Shown in pieces: positions 2,805-55,858 of a stretch of DNA of 64,000 nt. The notes under the pieces were generated by a model that made no database searches, had not been told where the DNA came from, and was given only the letters and a program-made list of their open reading frames with translations. The stretch is from Desulfofustis sp. PB-SRB1 (GTDB lineage: Bacteria > Desulfobacterota > Desulfobulbia > Desulfobulbales > Desulfocapsaceae). Position 1 is the first letter of the stretch; the number at the start of each line of letters is the position of its first letter. Both the position numbers and the translations under genes were made by a program. The stretch is from positions 1 to 64,000 of the forward strand of contig JAEQMT010000059.1 of assembly GCA_016722945.1 (NCBI GenBank). Reading direction: 5' to 3'.

Positions 2805-4914
2805 ACCCCCAGCTCCTCGAAATTCTTCTTGATCGTCGTCGCCAGTTGCACCGCCTCGGCGTTCAGGTCCTCCAGTTCCACATGGATATCGCGCAAGGCT
2901 TCCTCAAAATCGAAATCCTCATCCTCGTCCTCCGACGCAACGCCGACATAGCGGCCCGGCGTCAGGCTCCAGTCGTTGACCTCGATCTCGGTCCGGTCCA
3001 CCAACTTGACCAGACCTTCCACATCTCGCAGTTCGGCCTCGGGGAAACGATCAGTTAGCCAGTGGGCCTGTTTCCAGAAATAGCGGACAAGCTTGAGCTG
3101 TTCCACCGCCAGGGCGCGGGCTTCATCGGCGGCCTTGCGGGCGCGGGTGATATCACGGCCCGCCCAGGCGTCGCTGTCCCGGGCGTCGTAATCGTTCTCG
3201 CAGGTTTCGATCAGGCGGCAGGCGAGCTTGTAGAGCAGCTCAGTCTGCTTGACCAGATCGCGGCTGGTCTCGGCCAGGGGTGCGAGGCGGTTCACGGCCT
3301 TTTTCAATTCACCGTTGGTGGTATTCTGTTGCCCCAAGCTACCCGCTGTTCGCTTAAAGTTTTCCGGAAGGCCTCCGCATCCGCCTTGAACATCGGGATT
3401 GCGTCATCCAGTTCCTTGAGCGGCTCAGTGTGGGGTGCATCCTTAGCCAGGGTCTTGAGAAAGGGGTCGAAGTAGCTACGCAACGAGGTCAGTGCACTAA
3501 GAAAATCCGGCAGTGGTTCGACCATTTCATCGTTGTCGTCTTTCATCGTGAAACAGGCTGCGCCCTCAGTTAGCATACGTTGGCAGTAACCTGCCACGAG
3601 GTCGAGATATCGTCCTGTTTCGCCCGATAGAGCCAGACTATGGCGAGCAAGTTCTGCTCCTGCTCGGGCGAAAAATCGAAAATCTTGCGGGTGACTTTGC
3701 GGTAGACGTTGCGGGCGTCGATCATTAGCACCTTGTCGCGGTGCTGCTCGGGCTTGGCGCGGTTGAGGAAACCAGAGCTCACAGGGGACGGTGCGGGTGT
3801 AGAAAAAATTCGACCGAATAGCGACCATAACATCCACGTCGCCGGTCTCCACCAGCTTCCGGCGCACCTTCGCCTCGTCGCGCCCGGCACTGGAGGCCTG
3901 GGAGGACATGACGAACCCGGCCCGGTCCTGTTCGTTCAAATAGCTGTAGAAGTAGCTGATCCAGACGTAGTTACCGTTGCTGACCTTGCCCTTTTTGTTG
4001 ACGCCGGGCAGGCCGAAGGGCAGACGCCGGTCGCTCCCCACCTTGTCGGCGTCGATCTCATCCACGTTAAAAGGCGGATTGGCCATGACGAAGTCGGCCG
4101 TGCGCAGCAGTTCGTGCGGGTCTTCATAGTAGGTGATCGATTTCTGGATATCACCTTCCAGACCATGCACCGCCAGGTTCATCTTGGCCAGGCGGATGGT
4201 GGTGGCGTTTTTCTCCAGGCCGTAGAAGGTGAGCTTCTCCGTGGGATTTTCGTGCCGCCGCTCCACCACCCGGGCGCTCTGCACGAACATACCGCCCGAG
4301 CCGCAGGCCGGGTCGAGCAATGTGCCGCCGGTCGGTTCGATGACGTTGGCGATCAGCGAGACCAGCGACACCGGAGTGAAGAACTCGCCACCGTCGTGGG
4401 CCTTCTGGTCGGCAAACTGGGTCAGGAAGTATTCGTAGATGCGGCCGAAGACATCCCCGGAGACGCGCTTAAGCTCTTCGGGGTTGAGGGTGCGCAGCAG
4501 CTGGCCGAGCACGACGTTATCGAGTTCCTGATACTCGCTTTTAGGCAATACACCGCGCAGATTCTCATAGTCGGCCTCGATGGACTCCATGGCATCGATG
4601 ATCGCCTTGGCGCGGTCAGCGCTGTCAGGTAGGGCTACCAGAGTGTCGAACTGAGCCTTGGGCTGCAGGAAAATGGCGCTCTTCTGCGAAAAGTCTTCCT
4701 TGGTCAGCGGTCGGGTCTTGCCGCCTCGGGTGGGCAGGCCCGCCTCGATAGCATCCTTGACACCAAGATACCGGCTGTAGGCGTGGCGCAGAAACACCAG
4801 TCCCATGACCGGCAGGAAATACTCGTTGCCGGCGTAGTTGGAGTTGGCCCGCAGGGTATCCGCCGCGCTCCAAAGCCGTTTTTCAATAGCTTCGATGTGT
4901 TCAAGCTGGGCCAT
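2801..4914 (-). pseudogene. hsdM: Type I restriction-modification DNA methylase HsdM, frameshifted three times
   Basis: This is the N6-adenine methyltransferase subunit. It has the HsdM N-terminal helical domain (WSAADTLRANSNY), the SAM motif DPACGSGGMF and catalytic NPPF. After ...VPCELWF, near 3768, the family sequence moves to another frame (FLNRAKPEQHRDKVLMID, then IFDFSPEQEQNLLAIVWLY) and returns to the first frame near 3632 (GETGRYLDLVAGYCQRM). These are compensating shifts that leave about 45 foreign residues in an otherwise open frame. Near 3330 a third break ends the long frame, and the tail NTTNGELKKAVNRLAPLAE to [10 protein letters not shown] continues in another frame. Any product would lack a proper C-terminus. 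Confidence 0.9.
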
Positions 4915-4916
4915 GC

Positions 4917-5152
4917 TCAGGCTTCCTTCCCAATATACGTACTATGCAGGGCCTTGCCATTGTCCCCCAGGTTGCGCAGCAGGCTTTCGATCTTCTCCAG
5001 CACCAGCGGCGAAGGCTTGGCGCGTTCGTTCTCACAGCGGTTGATCTCGTGGCAAAGGTCACCCCGGGCCTGACCGCAAACTTTTCCTGCCTCAGACCGG
5101 TACGTTCCCGAAGCTCATGGACCAGCCTCGCCACACTGTGTTGCTCATCCAC
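4917..5152 (-). pseudogene. XRE-family helix-turn-helix regulator of the hsd operon, frameshifted
   Basis: A small Cro/CI-type DNA-binding protein sits directly upstream of hsdM; its stop is 2 nt before the hsdM ATG. It begins at a GTG and reads ARLVHELRERTGLRQEKFAV, the first helices of an HTH_3 domain. Near 5055 the frame shifts, and the recognisable continuation is EINRCENERAKPSPLVLEK, then IESLLRNLGDNGKAL, ending STYIGKEA. Such proteins commonly control R-M operons. With the shift the recognition helix is lost, so autoregulation is probably gone. Confidence 0.7.
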
Positions 5153-51443: not shown

Positions 51444-53222
51444 ATGGAACCAAGAGTGTGGGTGTGGATATTTCTGTTACTATACATCGTGTATTGTTTC
51501 TGGTGGGGTCTCAGAGGGTACTTCACTGAAAAAACCGCATCCGGGTACGCAATCGGCGGGCGCTCCATTCCGTTTATCGCGTTTCTGATGGCGGCCACCG
51601 CGGCCTCGTTTTCCGGCTGGACCACGGTGGGCCACCCGGGTTTGATCTGGCGTGATGGGCTGGCATACGCCTTTGCCTCATTTTACGTGCTCACCATTCC
51701 CATTACCGGAGCCTTCTTCGCCAAGCGCAACTGGCTGTTGGGAAAACGCTACGGGTTCGTGACACCGGGCGACATGTTCGCCTACTACTACAACAACGAG
51801 GCGGTGCGCTGGCTCACGGTGCTCTCGGCGGTGCTCTACTCCATGTTCTACTCCGGCCTGCAACTTATTGCCGCCGCCAAGCTGTTTGAAATCGTGGCTG
51901 GCGTGCCGTATGTGTACGGCCTTTTCTTCATGGCTTTCATCGTATGGTTCTACGTGGTTACCGGCGGCCTGAAGGCCTCCACCTGGGTGGGGGTCATTCA
52001 GTTTATCCTCCTTGTCCTTTCCATCGTCGTGCTGGGCTATTTCACCGTCACCTGCGACGCGCTCGGTGGATGGTCGGTATTTTCAGCAAAAATCGGTGAG
52101 CTCGATGCAAAATACCTGGAAGTCCCCGCCGTCATTAAATTCGAGCTCGGCACCGGCGGCTGGACATCGGTGATGATTCTCACCTACATGTTCGCCCTCA
52201 TGGGCATCCAGTCATCGCCTGCCTTCACCCTCTGGAATTACGGGATGTCCTCCCCCAAACCGCTGGCCTGGCAGCAGGTGTTCATGTCCACCTTCGTGGT
52301 TGGTATCGCCCTGTTCTTCTTCACGGCATTCCAGGGCATGGGGGCTAGGATATTGCAGGGGATGGGAGAAATATCGCCAAATGTCGACGGCGACGTGGTG
52401 CCGATGCTGATGAACTATCTGCTCCCCGGACCGATGATGGCCATCGTGTTCCTCGGTATCATCGCCGCCATCCACTCCACGGCGGCACCCTATATCGGCA
52501 CCGGCGGCACCATTGTGCTGCGCGACGTGTACTGGCGCTATTTCAAAAAACAGGAGGCCGGTCACGCCGAGCAGATCTGGGCAAACCGGATCTTCGTCAC
52601 CATCCTCACCGCCCTGGCAATTTTCGTCAGCCTCACGGCGCCCGGCGCCATCGTCATGATCGGCGGTTTTGCCACCGCCTTCGGGTTCATCATGTATCTG
52701 ATGCTGCTGGGCGTCCACTACGGCTTCAGATACCCGGCCATCGGCGTGGTGATCGGCCTGATCGGCGCCATTGCGGCCTGTTTCGTGACCTACTTCTACT
52801 ACAGGTACCCGCTTACCATGCACACGGCCTTCTGGGGTCTGTTCGTCGGCCTCATAATCGCCTATATCTGCCGCGGCATCGGCATCAAGGATTCCGAGGA
52901 GACCATCAAGCGCCAGCAAGAGATACGGGTCTGGATCAATGACGTGGACGGCCCGTCGGAACGCGGCCAGAAATGGCGTAACGCCATGAAATTCCTGGTC
53001 CCGCTCTGGTATGTATTCGCCATTGGACCGTTGTGCATCATTGGCAATAACGCTTTCAAGTTCGCCGGTTTTCCAGCCGTCTGGTCCTGGCAGATTGTCT
53101 GGTGGATCATCGGTATCGTGATGATGTGGGCGCTCTGTTTCAAGGCGGAGATGTCCACCACCTCGGAAGAGCAGATCAAGCGTGCCGGCGAAGAGCAGAT
53201 GATCGTCGTCAAGGAAGCCTAA
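51444..53222 (+). CDS. Sodium:solute symporter family protein
   Basis: A 592-residue SSS-family secondary transporter with about 13 hydrophobic segments. Family features are YAIGGRSIPFIAFLMAATAA near the N-terminus, SGWTTVGHPGLIW, YVVTGGLKASTWVGVIQF (the SSS signature) and FLGIIAAIHSTAAPYIGTGG in the sodium-site helix. A cytoplasmic C-terminal tail is rich in Glu. Substrate unknown; a carboxylate is common in this branch. It is followed after 21 nt by a tiny membrane peptide gene. Confidence 0.9.
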   Translation: MEPRVWVWIFLLLYIVYCFWWGLRGYFTEKTASGYAIGGRSIPFIAFLMAATAASFSGWTTVGHPGLIWRDGLAYAFASFYVLTIPITGAFFAKRNWLLGKRYGFVTPGDMFAYYYNNEAVRWLTVLSAVLYSMFYSGLQLIAAAKLFEIVAGVPYVYGLFFMAFIVWFYVVTGGLKASTWVGVIQFILLVLSIVVLGYFTVTCDALGGWSVFSAKIGELDAKYLEVPAVIKFELGTGGWTSVMILTYMFALMGIQSSPAFTLWNYGMSSPKPLAWQQVFMSTFVVGIALFFFTAFQGMGARILQGMGEISPNVDGDVVPMLMNYLLPGPMMAIVFLGIIAAIHSTAAPYIGTGGTIVLRDVYWRYFKKQEAGHAEQIWANRIFVTILTALAIFVSLTAPGAIVMIGGFATAFGFIMYLMLLGVHYGFRYPAIGVVIGLIGAIAACFVTYFYYRYPLTMHTAFWGLFVGLIIAYICRGIGIKDSEETIKRQQEIRVWINDVDGPSERGQKWRNAMKFLVPLWYVFAIGPLCIIGNNAFKFAGFPAVWSWQIVWWIIGIVMMWALCFKAEMSTTSEEQIKRAGEEQMIVVKEA

Positions 53223-53243
53223 CCACCAGCAAAGGAGAACGAT

Positions 53244-53330
53244 ATGGCCAAGGAAGATATGTGGTTGATTATTGTCGTGGCCGTGGCTATCGCCTTTACC
53301 GCCTCATTCGGCATGGGGCTGTGGGGATAG
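53244..53330 (+). CDS. 28-residue single-helix membrane peptide downstream of the symporter
   Basis: The sequence begins MAKEDMWLIIVVAVAIAFTA and continues to GLWG, one hydrophobic helix with a short charged head. A clear AAAGGAGAACGAT ribosome site precedes the ATG, and the strong terminator lies 60 nt after the stop, so it is the last gene of the symporter transcript. Small helper subunits are known for some SSS transporters. A role in stabilising or regulating this symporter is inferred only from position. Confidence 0.65.
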   Translation: MAKEDMWLIIVVAVAIAFTASFGMGLWG

Positions 53331-53390
53331 GCGCACACCGCTCATAATACACTGTGCCGGGGGCGCCGCCTTCGGCGCTCACCTTACCAC

Positions 53391-53424
53391 GGGCCGCCCG
53401 CACAGTGCGGGCGGCCCCTGTTTT
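53391..53424 (+). terminator. Rho-independent terminator of the symporter operon
   Basis: GGGCCGCCCGCA (53391-53402) pairs perfectly with TGCGGGCGGCCC (53406-53417) over a 3-nt loop, followed by CTGTTTTG. The 12-bp GC-rich stem makes it strong. Confidence 0.9.
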
Positions 53425-53475
53425 GTCGAGACTCTCAGAAAGCCGGGAAGGGCACCACGACGACGAAGAGCAAAG

Positions 53476-53493
53476 TTTTTACGACGCCATCAC
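53476..53493 (+). repeat. 18-nt sequence shared with 29691-29708
   Basis: TTTTTACGACGCCATCAC is identical to the copy behind rnpB. Here it lies between the symporter terminator and the stop of the convergent small membrane protein gene. Confidence 0.55.
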
Positions 53494-53912
53494 CGTTTAT
53501 GAATCCGGCAGGCCTGGAGAATGAAAAAGCCGATAAAACCGCCCACCCCGTAATAGGGTATCTTGTTGATGGAAAAATCACCAAACAGCGTGGTTCCCGA
53601 CAATGGCGCACCAATGGCGGGAATTTGCCCGGCGAGCAGTTCGATACCGCTCAGCACCACAAAGCAGCCGAGCAGCACCTGTTTTTCCCGGAGCCGGGGA
53701 ACGGCTATCTGGATAATCAGGCTTGCTACAATAAGCAGCAGTATGGCGGAAATGTAGATGTTTATCAGCTCCGCCTGCGGCCCGTTGAAATAGTGCAGGC
53801 TAAGCCACAGCGGCATGCAGATAACGAGAAACTTGATCAGCGTGATCCGGTTTTTGGTGGGATCGTCCGGTCCCTCAGCATCACGATAGGGCGATAATCT
53901 TCCGTCATTCAT
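53490..53912 (-). CDS. Hypothetical four-helix membrane protein
   Basis: A 140-residue protein with four hydrophobic segments (IKFLVICMPLWLSL, IYISAILLLIVASLIIQIAV, VLLGCFVVLSGIELL and YYGVGGFIGFFILQA) and a polar, Asp-rich N-terminus. I chose ATG 53912; an upstream TTG adds only seven residues. No family recognised. It is convergent with the symporter operon and lies downstream of the next minus-strand gene's promoter side. Confidence 0.6.
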   Translation of the reverse strand: MNDGRLSPYRDAEGPDDPTKNRITLIKFLVICMPLWLSLHYFNGPQAELINIYISAILLLIVASLIIQIAVPRLREKQVLLGCFVVLSGIELLAGQIPAIGAPLSGTTLFGDFSINKIPYYGVGGFIGFFILQACRIHKR

Positions 53913-53956
53913 ACTATATCCGCTCTTTTTCAATATGGGTTATATTACCGGCATTG

Positions 53957-55858
53957 TCAGACAATCCCGGTCATCTCGATGCTCATCTTCTGCTGGATCC
54001 CCTCGGTCCGGCGAAATATCTCCTTGAGCATGGTTTGATCGATGCGGGAGAGCCGTTTCGGGTTGACAAAATTATCGGCGCTGCCGCCCTCCTCGTTGAT
54101 GGCGGTAATCTGCCTGAGAAAACGCATGTTCATCAGATAGTGATACGACTGGACAATGTCGTCATATTCGGCGGTGGTGAGCTTGCGTTGTTCATGGATC
54201 AACCGCAGCCGCTCAAGGGTGTTGGTGTGGCGGATGCCTAATTTGAGGCCATAGATCCGGGCAAAATCGATAATCGGCTGTAGGGCCCGCTTGATATCGA
54301 ATTTGTCCTTATGCTCACCTTTTGACTGCACCACGATATTTCTGAAAAATCCTAGCGGCGGTTTGAAATAAAGGGCGTTTTCCACCATGTTGCGAAAAAA
54401 TCCGGGCCAGTTCTGAAGAGAGGTAAAAAGGTAGTGTGCCAGCTGATCGGTAAGCGCTGTATCACCATAACCATGGCGAAAATCAAAAAATATGGAGGAG
54501 TTGAGCAGATCTTCAGGATTCGGTGTCCTTATCCAATCCATGAAATAGCGCTTCCACACCGACAACGGCTGGCACCAGTGCGGGTTGGAGGCCATGTTGT
54601 TGCCCTCGCACAGCGAGTAACCGGCCTCATCTAGCCAGGTGCTGATTGTTGTGGCGAGCGCCAGAAAATAGCTTCGCGCTTCTTCCCGGTCGTTCTCATC
54701 TTCGATATCTTGATAGATAATCGCGTTATCCTGGTCGGTCTTTAAGGTCTGTTCCCGCCTCCCCTCACTGCCCATGATCAGAAAGGCGAAGGTGCAGGGC
54801 GGCGGCCCGGCATCGGCCAGAGCAAGTTCGACGATCTTTTCCAGAACCGCGTCGGAGAAGGTGGTGATCAGCGAAGTCAGGGTTTCCGGCTGAGCGCCGT
54901 TCTTGATGGGCTCCAGGAGAATGTCCGGTAGGCGCCGGTGAATATTGGTAAGCTCCTTGGCGTGTTCGGCCCGCTTCACCTCCTGGATGAGAAAATAGGG
55001 CGAGCGGCTCTGTTCAGTGATAATCTGCCGGTCGGTGACGATGCCCACGATGTTGCCGTCCATATCGCGTACCGCCAGATGCGAGATGGAGGTCTCGATC
55101 ATCGCCATGTAGGCCTCTAAGACAAGGGCGCCCACCTCCACGCTGACCAGGGGGCTGGACATGATCGTTGCCACCGGCTGGTCGCCGGACAGCCCGGTGA
55201 TGATGACGCGGGTGCGTAGATCCTCGTCGGTAACGATGCCCTCGATAACCTCATCACCATCGTGGACGAAGATGTAGCCGGTGTCCGCCTCGCTCATCAT
55301 GGTCGCCGCCTGTTTGATGGTTGCCGTGGCGGGACAGCGCAGAATGGCCGGTTCGATAAGAGCGGTTATGGGCTGCTGCAGAAAAGGCGTGGCGCCGCTA
55401 TCCGCCCTGATCTGGCCGGCGACCATATCGGCGTAGGCGCGATCCACCATTTTTTTGCCGAAGGTGTTGGTAAAATACTCCTTGAACACCTCAAACTCGT
55501 CACACAGCCCGATAAACTGATCGTGCGGCACCAGAAAAAACGAGGTGTCCTCAACGAGCTGCATGGTGCGAATGGCAACACCGCCGTTCACCAGCATCGA
55601 GATACCGCCGAAGCAATCACCCTCGGAAAGCATACCGCGCAGGGTTTTTTTCTGGTCATGCTCGAAGTAGAGCTCGGCTGAGCCTTTGGCGATTACATAG
55701 AGGTGGTGCACCGGTGTCTTCTGCTGAACAAATTTGATCTCACCGGCAGCGCTGGTCTCTTCTGAAATATGGGGCTGGAGCTGGGTCACGTTCCGGCGTG
55801 GCAGAAAGGCGAAGGGCACCAGATCGGTAAGCATGGACAGCTTTTCCTGATCAATCAC
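53957..55858 (-). CDS. cNMP-binding/CBS/DUF294 nucleotidyltransferase-like signalling protein
   Basis: Four modules in 633 residues. A cyclic nucleotide-binding fold comes first (residues 20-140, GSAELYFEHDQKKTLRGMLS, GDCFGGISML). A CBS pair follows (150-290, ADTGYIFVHDGDEVIEGIVT and ISHLAVRDMDGNIVGIVTDR). Then a DUF294 nucleotidyltransferase-like domain has GSEGRREQTLKTDQDNAI, and a DUF294_C helical domain ends the protein. This architecture is widespread, and its N-terminal parts sense nucleotides. Its target is unknown. Confidence 0.9.
   Translation of the reverse strand: MIDQEKLSMLTDLVPFAFLPRRNVTQLQPHISEETSAAGEIKFVQQKTPVHHLYVIAKGSAELYFEHDQKKTLRGMLSEGDCFGGISMLVNGGVAIRTMQLVEDTSFFLVPHDQFIGLCDEFEVFKEYFTNTFGKKMVDRAYADMVAGQIRADSGATPFLQQPITALIEPAILRCPATATIKQAATMMSEADTGYIFVHDGDEVIEGIVTDEDLRTRVIITGLSGDQPVATIMSSPLVSVEVGALVLEAYMAMIETSISHLAVRDMDGNIVGIVTDRQIITEQSRSPYFLIQEVKRAEHAKELTNIHRRLPDILLEPIKNGAQPETLTSLITTFSDAVLEKIVELALADAGPPPCTFAFLIMGSEGRREQTLKTDQDNAIIYQDIEDENDREEARSYFLALATTISTWLDEAGYSLCEGNNMASNPHWCQPLSVWKRYFMDWIRTPNPEDLLNSSIFFDFRHGYGDTALTDQLAHYLFTSLQNWPGFFRNMVENALYFKPPLGFFRNIVVQSKGEHKDKFDIKRALQPIIDFARIYGLKLGIRHTNTLERLRLIHEQRKLTTAEYDDIVQSYHYLMNMRFLRQITAINEEGGSADNFVNPKRLSRIDQTMLKEIFRRTEGIQQKMSIEMTGIV

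Follow-up and report, generated by a model that had tools for sequence, protein, structure and literature searches.

Does an open reading frame of 28 codons that follows a sodium:solute symporter (SSS) gene in Desulfofustis sp. PB-SRB1 encode a protein and, if it does, is that protein a part of the transporter? SSS symporters are commonly treated as machines made of a single protein; a review of the prokaryotic members uses none of the terms 'subunit', 'accessory', or 'small protein' in its main text (PMC7918813). The frame lies in the stretch of 64,000 nucleotides that we analyzed ('the window'; contig JAEQMT010000059.1, positions 1 to 64,000), and an initial annotation, made from the letters of this stretch, had proposed it as an overlooked transporter subunit.

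The peptide gene in the window

The symporter gene (51,444–53,222, forward strand) encodes a protein of 592 residues. Two properties place this protein in the SSS/SLC5 family: it has the PF00474 domain (110.6 bits vs a Pfam cut-off of 22.8), and its fold model resembles the structures of SiaT, vSGLT, SGLT1/2, and SMCT1, with SiaT, SGLT2, and vSGLT as the best PDB folds. The SGLT2 chains that the model matches include those within SGLT2-MAP17 entries.

The symporter stop codon (53,220–53,222) is separated by 21 nt from the ATG of the peptide gene (53,244–53,330, forward strand; ATG at 53,244 and TAG at 53,328–53,330), whose predicted single-helix product is MAKEDMWLIIVVAVAIAFTASFGMGLWG. A Shine-Dalgarno sequence, AAAGGAG, is located at 53,231–53,237 on the same strand. 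The start and stop codons, the count of 28 sense codons, and the strong ribosome site that had been claimed for this frame were all verified in the sequence, as was the terminator 3′ of the peptide gene. This intrinsic terminator (53,391–53,427, forward strand) has a 12-pair stem (11 G-C) followed by CTGTTTTGTC; the stem-loop (53,391–53,417) begins 60 nt 3′ of the peptide stop, and the surrounding 100 nt (53,331–53,430) have a more stable fold than 200 of 200 shuffles (z −3.9). A scan of the window found no terminator-like site between the symporter stop and the peptide ATG, so the two genes likely share a single transcript, and the terminator is probably common to both. No sigma-54 promoter was found before the symporter gene (15 matches in the window vs 21 expected).

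We compared the frame with all 269 ATG frames of 20–40 codons on both strands of the whole window. The sequence AGGAG, GGAGG, or AAGGAG is present at a fitting distance in two of these, and an 18-residue hydropathy reaching 1.7 in eight; the only frame with both is the one at 53,244.

Conservation behind orthologous symporter genes

A scan of a genome collection with the symporter protein yielded 84 relatives, of which the best 80 were kept as loci (some are near copies or come from the same genome). The symporter stop is in view in 74 loci; of the six others, five end at contig ends and the sixth is L074, which is described below. A frame of exactly 28 codons is found behind the symporter stop in 71 of the 74 loci, 66 by the first pattern used, four more (L005, L006, L043, and L044), and L061 on inspection. 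Locus L007 carries the orthologue from Desulfofustis glycolicus DSM 9705. In L010, a 28-mer frame begins and the contig ends inside it; in L079, a Streptosporangiales record, the frame has 26 codons; and in L066 (the same locus as L137), an intact symporter gene has no peptide frame within 700 nt. The next gene in L066 is response-regulator-like (cluster c9).

The window peptide and those from the 71 loci (72 peptides, 63 distinct) align without gaps in 28 columns (alignment A1), with 32–82% identity to the window peptide and the consensus MAxEDxWLIxxxxFCILFTASFGWGWWG. M1 and G25 are invariant, and E4, D5, F22, G23, and G28 are conserved in at least 90% of the 72 rows. The start codon is ATG in 71 genes and GTG in one; a 5-mer of the Shine-Dalgarno sequence is present in 70 of the 72 genes and a 4-mer in 71. 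The median dN/dS in the peptide frame is 0.376 (from 558 usable pairs of 2556, those with pS of 0.1–0.6); the two alternative frames give 1.11 and 1.74, that is, purifying selection acts in the peptide frame only. Base entropies at codon positions 1, 2, and 3 are 0.88, 0.67, and 1.44, and in the 60 nt 3′ of the peptide stop the base entropy is near random. Purifying selection on the frame acts at the protein level, the length of the frame is fixed, and it is located behind one clade of SSS genes. The initial annotation had named a lack of conservation of the frame and ribosome site in orthologous loci as the observation that would speak against it; when we made this check, the frame, its length, and its ribosome site were found to be kept (71/74 loci; 70/72 genes).

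The arrangement of the two genes is conserved as well. The gap between the symporter stop and the peptide start has a median of 35 nt (range 15–287) and is at most 60 nt in 63 of the 71 loci. Terminator-like sites are located between the two genes in two of 70 loci and within 150 nt 3′ of the peptide gene in 33 of 70, vs 3% in shuffles of those regions.

All 63 distinct sequences have their charged residues within the first six positions, and the rest of the peptide is uncharged and hydrophobic. At the start, 44 of the 63 have a net charge of −1, and the positive-inside rule therefore does not decide the orientation. When the symporter and the peptide were modeled as a fusion, a helix was formed over peptide residues 3–23 with a pLDDT of 53–66 (by blocks of ten), values at which its place on the symporter is not confidently predicted. 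Conservation over residues 6–22 does not favor a single helical face (permutation p 0.41); a fixed docking face would predict a conserved one, so this result counts against such a face.

Association with one clade of SSS symporters

In a sample of 60 genomes from the same family, the peptide is present in 10, the symporter in 11, and neither in 49; by coordinates, all 10 peptides are directly behind the symporter, and the eleventh symporter gene (G703) is cut by a contig end. In a sample of 297 genomes from the phylum, five encode a symporter with at least 60% identity; the peptide is behind four of these, and the fifth, in G232, is cut by the contig end. A profile search of the phylum sample gave matches with E ≤0.01 in nine of the 297 genomes, four of which were accepted and five (E 0.001–0.01) set aside. 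Of these five, the matches at L088, L090, and L092 proved to be something other than a short frame following an SSS gene, and those in G232 and G144 are inside longer open frames (531 and 449 codons, respectively). The nine genomes reached through the loci contain 13 SSS genes, and all 10 strong peptide matches in them are adjacent to one of these (five matches with E 0.18–0.97 were dropped): G299, G300, and G302 each have two symporters and two peptides, G303 has two symporters and one peptide, G304 has no peptide, and G305 has only a 26-mer (vide infra). In the sampled genomes, strong matches occur beside no other gene.

The symporters sampled outside the clade lack the peptide. A sister SSS type (about 40% identity) is encoded by six genomes of the phylum sample and by seven of 52 genomes from the SAR324 phylum, and no similar peptide is located behind any of the 12 genes (of 13) with the 3′ end in view. 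None is found behind three more distant SSS genes (L103–L105). Of the further SSS genes in the genome of the window, L002 has no similar frame behind it, and none was seen by eye in 200 nt behind L003. In a maximum likelihood tree of 37 SSS proteins with a midpoint root (the long branches flagged, L100 and L103–L105, are all peptide-less), the 23 peptide-bearing rows fall in one group of 25. Presence of the peptide tracks the tree, with three changes that can be read as a single gain plus two losses.

The remaining two members of this group are L137 and L074. The genome of L137 also has a second SSS gene, with a peptide, so that for the L137 symporter the peptide is either dispensable or supplied from the other locus. 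At L074 (a Rokubacterial contig from G304; about 4700–5100 of the locus), the symporter tail deviates from its relatives after QIQRA and is open to the contig end, and no such peptide is seen behind it; given the deviant tail, the loss there could stem from faulty assembly or from a deletion. The altered tail itself may reflect a frameshift, a deletion, or an assembly fault. The tail motif Q[I/L]xRA is present in seven of seven peptide-bearing and none of nine peptide-less rows compared. As a docking site for the peptide the motif was rejected, because it may just follow the clade and peptide-less L137 retains it. A tblastn search of plasmids with the peptide gave no match; the symporter matched 202 plasmid records, all with <60% identity.

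Members in other phyla

The 28-mers occur in Desulfobacterota and one SAR324 genome, and 26-mers are found in the Actinomycetota and a Rokubacterial phylum. The SAR324 record (L014) encodes a 28-mer and is the only one of 52 genomes sampled in that phylum with a symporter of >60% identity; its contig is possibly wrongly binned. In the phylum of L079, symporters of this type occur in two of 246 genomes; the peptides behind them are MALEDRLLLLAIGLVALWLILLATVL and VLLEDRLLIVSLVVIVIWLVVLDTVL, the latter with a GTG start. In the Rokubacterial phylum, they occur in two of 95 genomes, G304 and G590. The G590 symporter (L139; 54% identity) is followed by the 26-mer MKIGLPEIWTFGTVIFALIFMFVYFG, whose ATG overlaps the symporter stop as ATGA; this overlap is a sign of translational coupling. 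Place and size join the 26-mers to the 28-mer family, as does an LED start in MALEDRLLLLAIGLVALWLILLATVL and VLLEDRLLIVSLVVIVIWLVVLDTVL; the G305 26-mer, the one 26-mer tested, was missed by the A1 profile. We therefore consider the 26-mers likely homologous to the 28-mers by position, size, and partial motif rather than by score.

Genome neighborhood and substrate

In the window, the upstream neighbor of the symporter gene is a nicotinate phosphoribosyltransferase gene on the opposite strand. Downstream, a gene for a 147-residue membrane protein (53,490–53,933, reverse strand) matches DUF2809 below the cut-off in the window copy, and a gene for a cNMP-binding/CBS/DUF294 nucleotidyltransferase (53,957–55,858, reverse strand) is convergent with the symporter-peptide unit. 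The protein encoded at the place of the 147-residue protein in L006 matches DUF2809 above the cut-off (cluster c7, six of 80 loci), and the cluster that holds the L006 cNMP-binding/CBS/DUF294-type protein (c6) is likewise found in six of 80. A larger cluster (c2; e.g., L030:4929–7082) is found in the flanks of 45 of the 80 loci, usually downstream; its members have about 700 residues with PAS and DnaQ-type 3′-5′ exonuclease domains and, by eye, N-terminal membrane helices, an odd combination for a transporter operon.

Genes for acyl-CoA ligases of the AMP-binding type were found, by clustering, in the flanks (≤3 kb) of 48 of the 80 loci. In L015, L026, L030, and others, a tandem pair of these genes is upstream of the symporter gene. 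Two complete representatives were scanned for their identities: the L055 ligase passes the cut-off for acetate–CoA ligase (770.9 vs 724.95 bits), and the L030 ligase has its best score as propionate–CoA ligase, 743.1 bits, below the cut-off of 955. The window has no acyl-CoA ligase gene beside its symporter gene, so the candidate substrate is proposed through the orthologues. SSS carriers of short acids are described among prokaryotic members, that is, ActP, MctC, and MctP (PMC7918813). From these neighborhoods, the clade probably functions in the uptake of acetate or similar short carboxylates.

Relation to known families and systems

Neither the window peptide nor any of the 72 members is assigned to a Pfam or NCBIfam family, and the same is true of seven further peptides in NCBIfam. 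The best of the weak matches were those of 10 members to the NGO_0222 family (lowest E 0.0077; an outlying member reaches 17 bits vs a cut-off of 38) and of four members to DUF2897 (lowest E 0.011); among PDB sequences, the only match to the A1 profile is Sec61 (E 1.5).

The NCBIfam model 'symport_access' (33 positions, cut-off 35 bits), which we take to be NF045580, 'symporter small accessory protein', describes a similar role, that is, a small protein beside a symporter, insofar as the role can be taken from the family name. It is above its cut-off in one of 14 control genomes and in none of five peptide-holding genomes; the peptide is absent from the 14 matches listed to E 10, and hmmscan gave no match among the 72 members or the seven further peptides. 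Small accessory peptides of symporters are thus a kind already named in the database, and, within the range of these searches, the window peptide would represent a distinct sequence family of that kind. In the library of papers searched, none contains 'symporter small accessory protein' as a phrase.

The nearest parallel in mode of action may be MAP17 (PDZK1IP1), the single-helix auxiliary subunit of human SGLT2, whose fold is the same as that of the SSS protein here; MAP17 is eukaryotic and longer than the 28-residue peptide. The single helix of MAP17 is described as contacting TM13 of SGLT2 and is regarded as a fixed, stabilizing part of the scaffold that also aids folding and localization of SGLT2 (PMC10803289). 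The A1 profile found no such chain in the PDB sequences (the presence of MAP17 there is taken from the SGLT2-MAP17 entries), and the likeness suggested is one of role only.

DUF4212 proteins are small partners of SSS symporters; like the YjcH (DUF485), YhdT (DUF997), and DUF3311 proteins, they are longer than the peptide, about 70–110 residues. These four families are not among the nine Pfam families matched by any of the 72 members to E 10. In record annotations, panF has an adjoining YhdT family gene; the acs-yjcH-actP arrangement, with a small protein gene beside the SSS gene, and a DUF3311 gene near MctP are described in PMC6498577 and PMC9100948, respectively. Single-helix or very small membrane proteins are also described for other transporters, including AcrZ and MgtS/MgtR/MgtU (28–49 residues where given; PMC10710835), and for transporters or oxidases to which they belong, i.e., KdpF and CydX (PMC10903887). 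The partners of all of these differ from SSS symporters, and none has a family match to the peptide: KdpF and CydX/CbdX gave no Pfam match, and the CbdX model matched one of 72 members at E 0.049.

Discussion

We think it likely that the frame is translated into a single-pass membrane protein and that this protein is an accessory subunit dedicated to one SSS clade, probably for the uptake of short carboxylates. The peptide gene, which is unannotated, has been kept with one symporter branch through evolution, and its product is therefore probably a small component of the transporter that has so far been missed. The initial suggestion of an overlooked subunit is supported, to the extent that sequence allows, by copy number, position, and the link to the clade.

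That the frame is a chance occurrence or an RNA element rather than a protein might be suspected of any frame so short and located just before a terminator. We give this explanation almost no credence: codon-position entropy, dN/dS, and the conserved start and ribosome site all speak for a protein, the sequence is near random over the 60 nt that follow the stop, and no Rfam family is above threshold (one match, over the terminator, has 21.9 bits vs a cut-off of 41). As a chance frame, it was rejected by conservation, codon statistics, and the count of one in 269 frames. A co-transcribed membrane peptide could instead act elsewhere, for example, on the PAS/exonuclease protein, an idea that draws on the presence of c2 in the flanks of more than half of the loci; we judge it improbable, since the peptide stays with the symporter where c2 is not in the flank examined (the window, L005, L006, L007, L009, and L011).

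A regulatory role deserves more weight and is still unlikely in our estimate. The peptide would bind the symporter in the membrane and inhibit it or steer its proteolysis, like MgtS/MgtR/MgtU; membrane proteins of 28–49 residues are described that inhibit, modulate, stabilize, or help degrade transporters (PMC10710835), and membrane location and pairing with a transporter are predicted equally by a regulator and by a subunit. For a regulator, however, control of its own would rather be expected, whereas the gap of 15–60 nt in 63 of 71 loci implies that the peptide would be made whenever the symporter is; the nearly one-to-one pairing of peptide and symporter also argues against regulation.

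For the accessory subunit, we propose the following. The peptide would be expressed from the symporter mRNA, right after the symporter. Its one helix, with 'xED' as a short charged start and glycine/tryptophan at the end, would insert into the membrane in one orientation or the other and bind the symporter by packing against the outer helices. Any effect on transport of the presumed short carboxylate would most likely come from stabilizing a fixed scaffold or assisting assembly, by analogy with MAP17 and human SGLT2. In a stronger form of this proposal, which we advance tentatively and hold to have less than an even chance, the peptide is an independently arisen bacterial counterpart of MAP17, that is, an obligate one-helix subunit of an SLC5-fold branch, present in several phyla and missed by gene callers, and the symporter alone would not fully fold or work.

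If the peptide is a conserved unannotated partner, this clade, including the candidate acetate/propionate importers of sulfate reducers, would have been studied minus one part; it would also offer a small bacterial system for asking why SLC5-fold transporters recruit single-helix partners.
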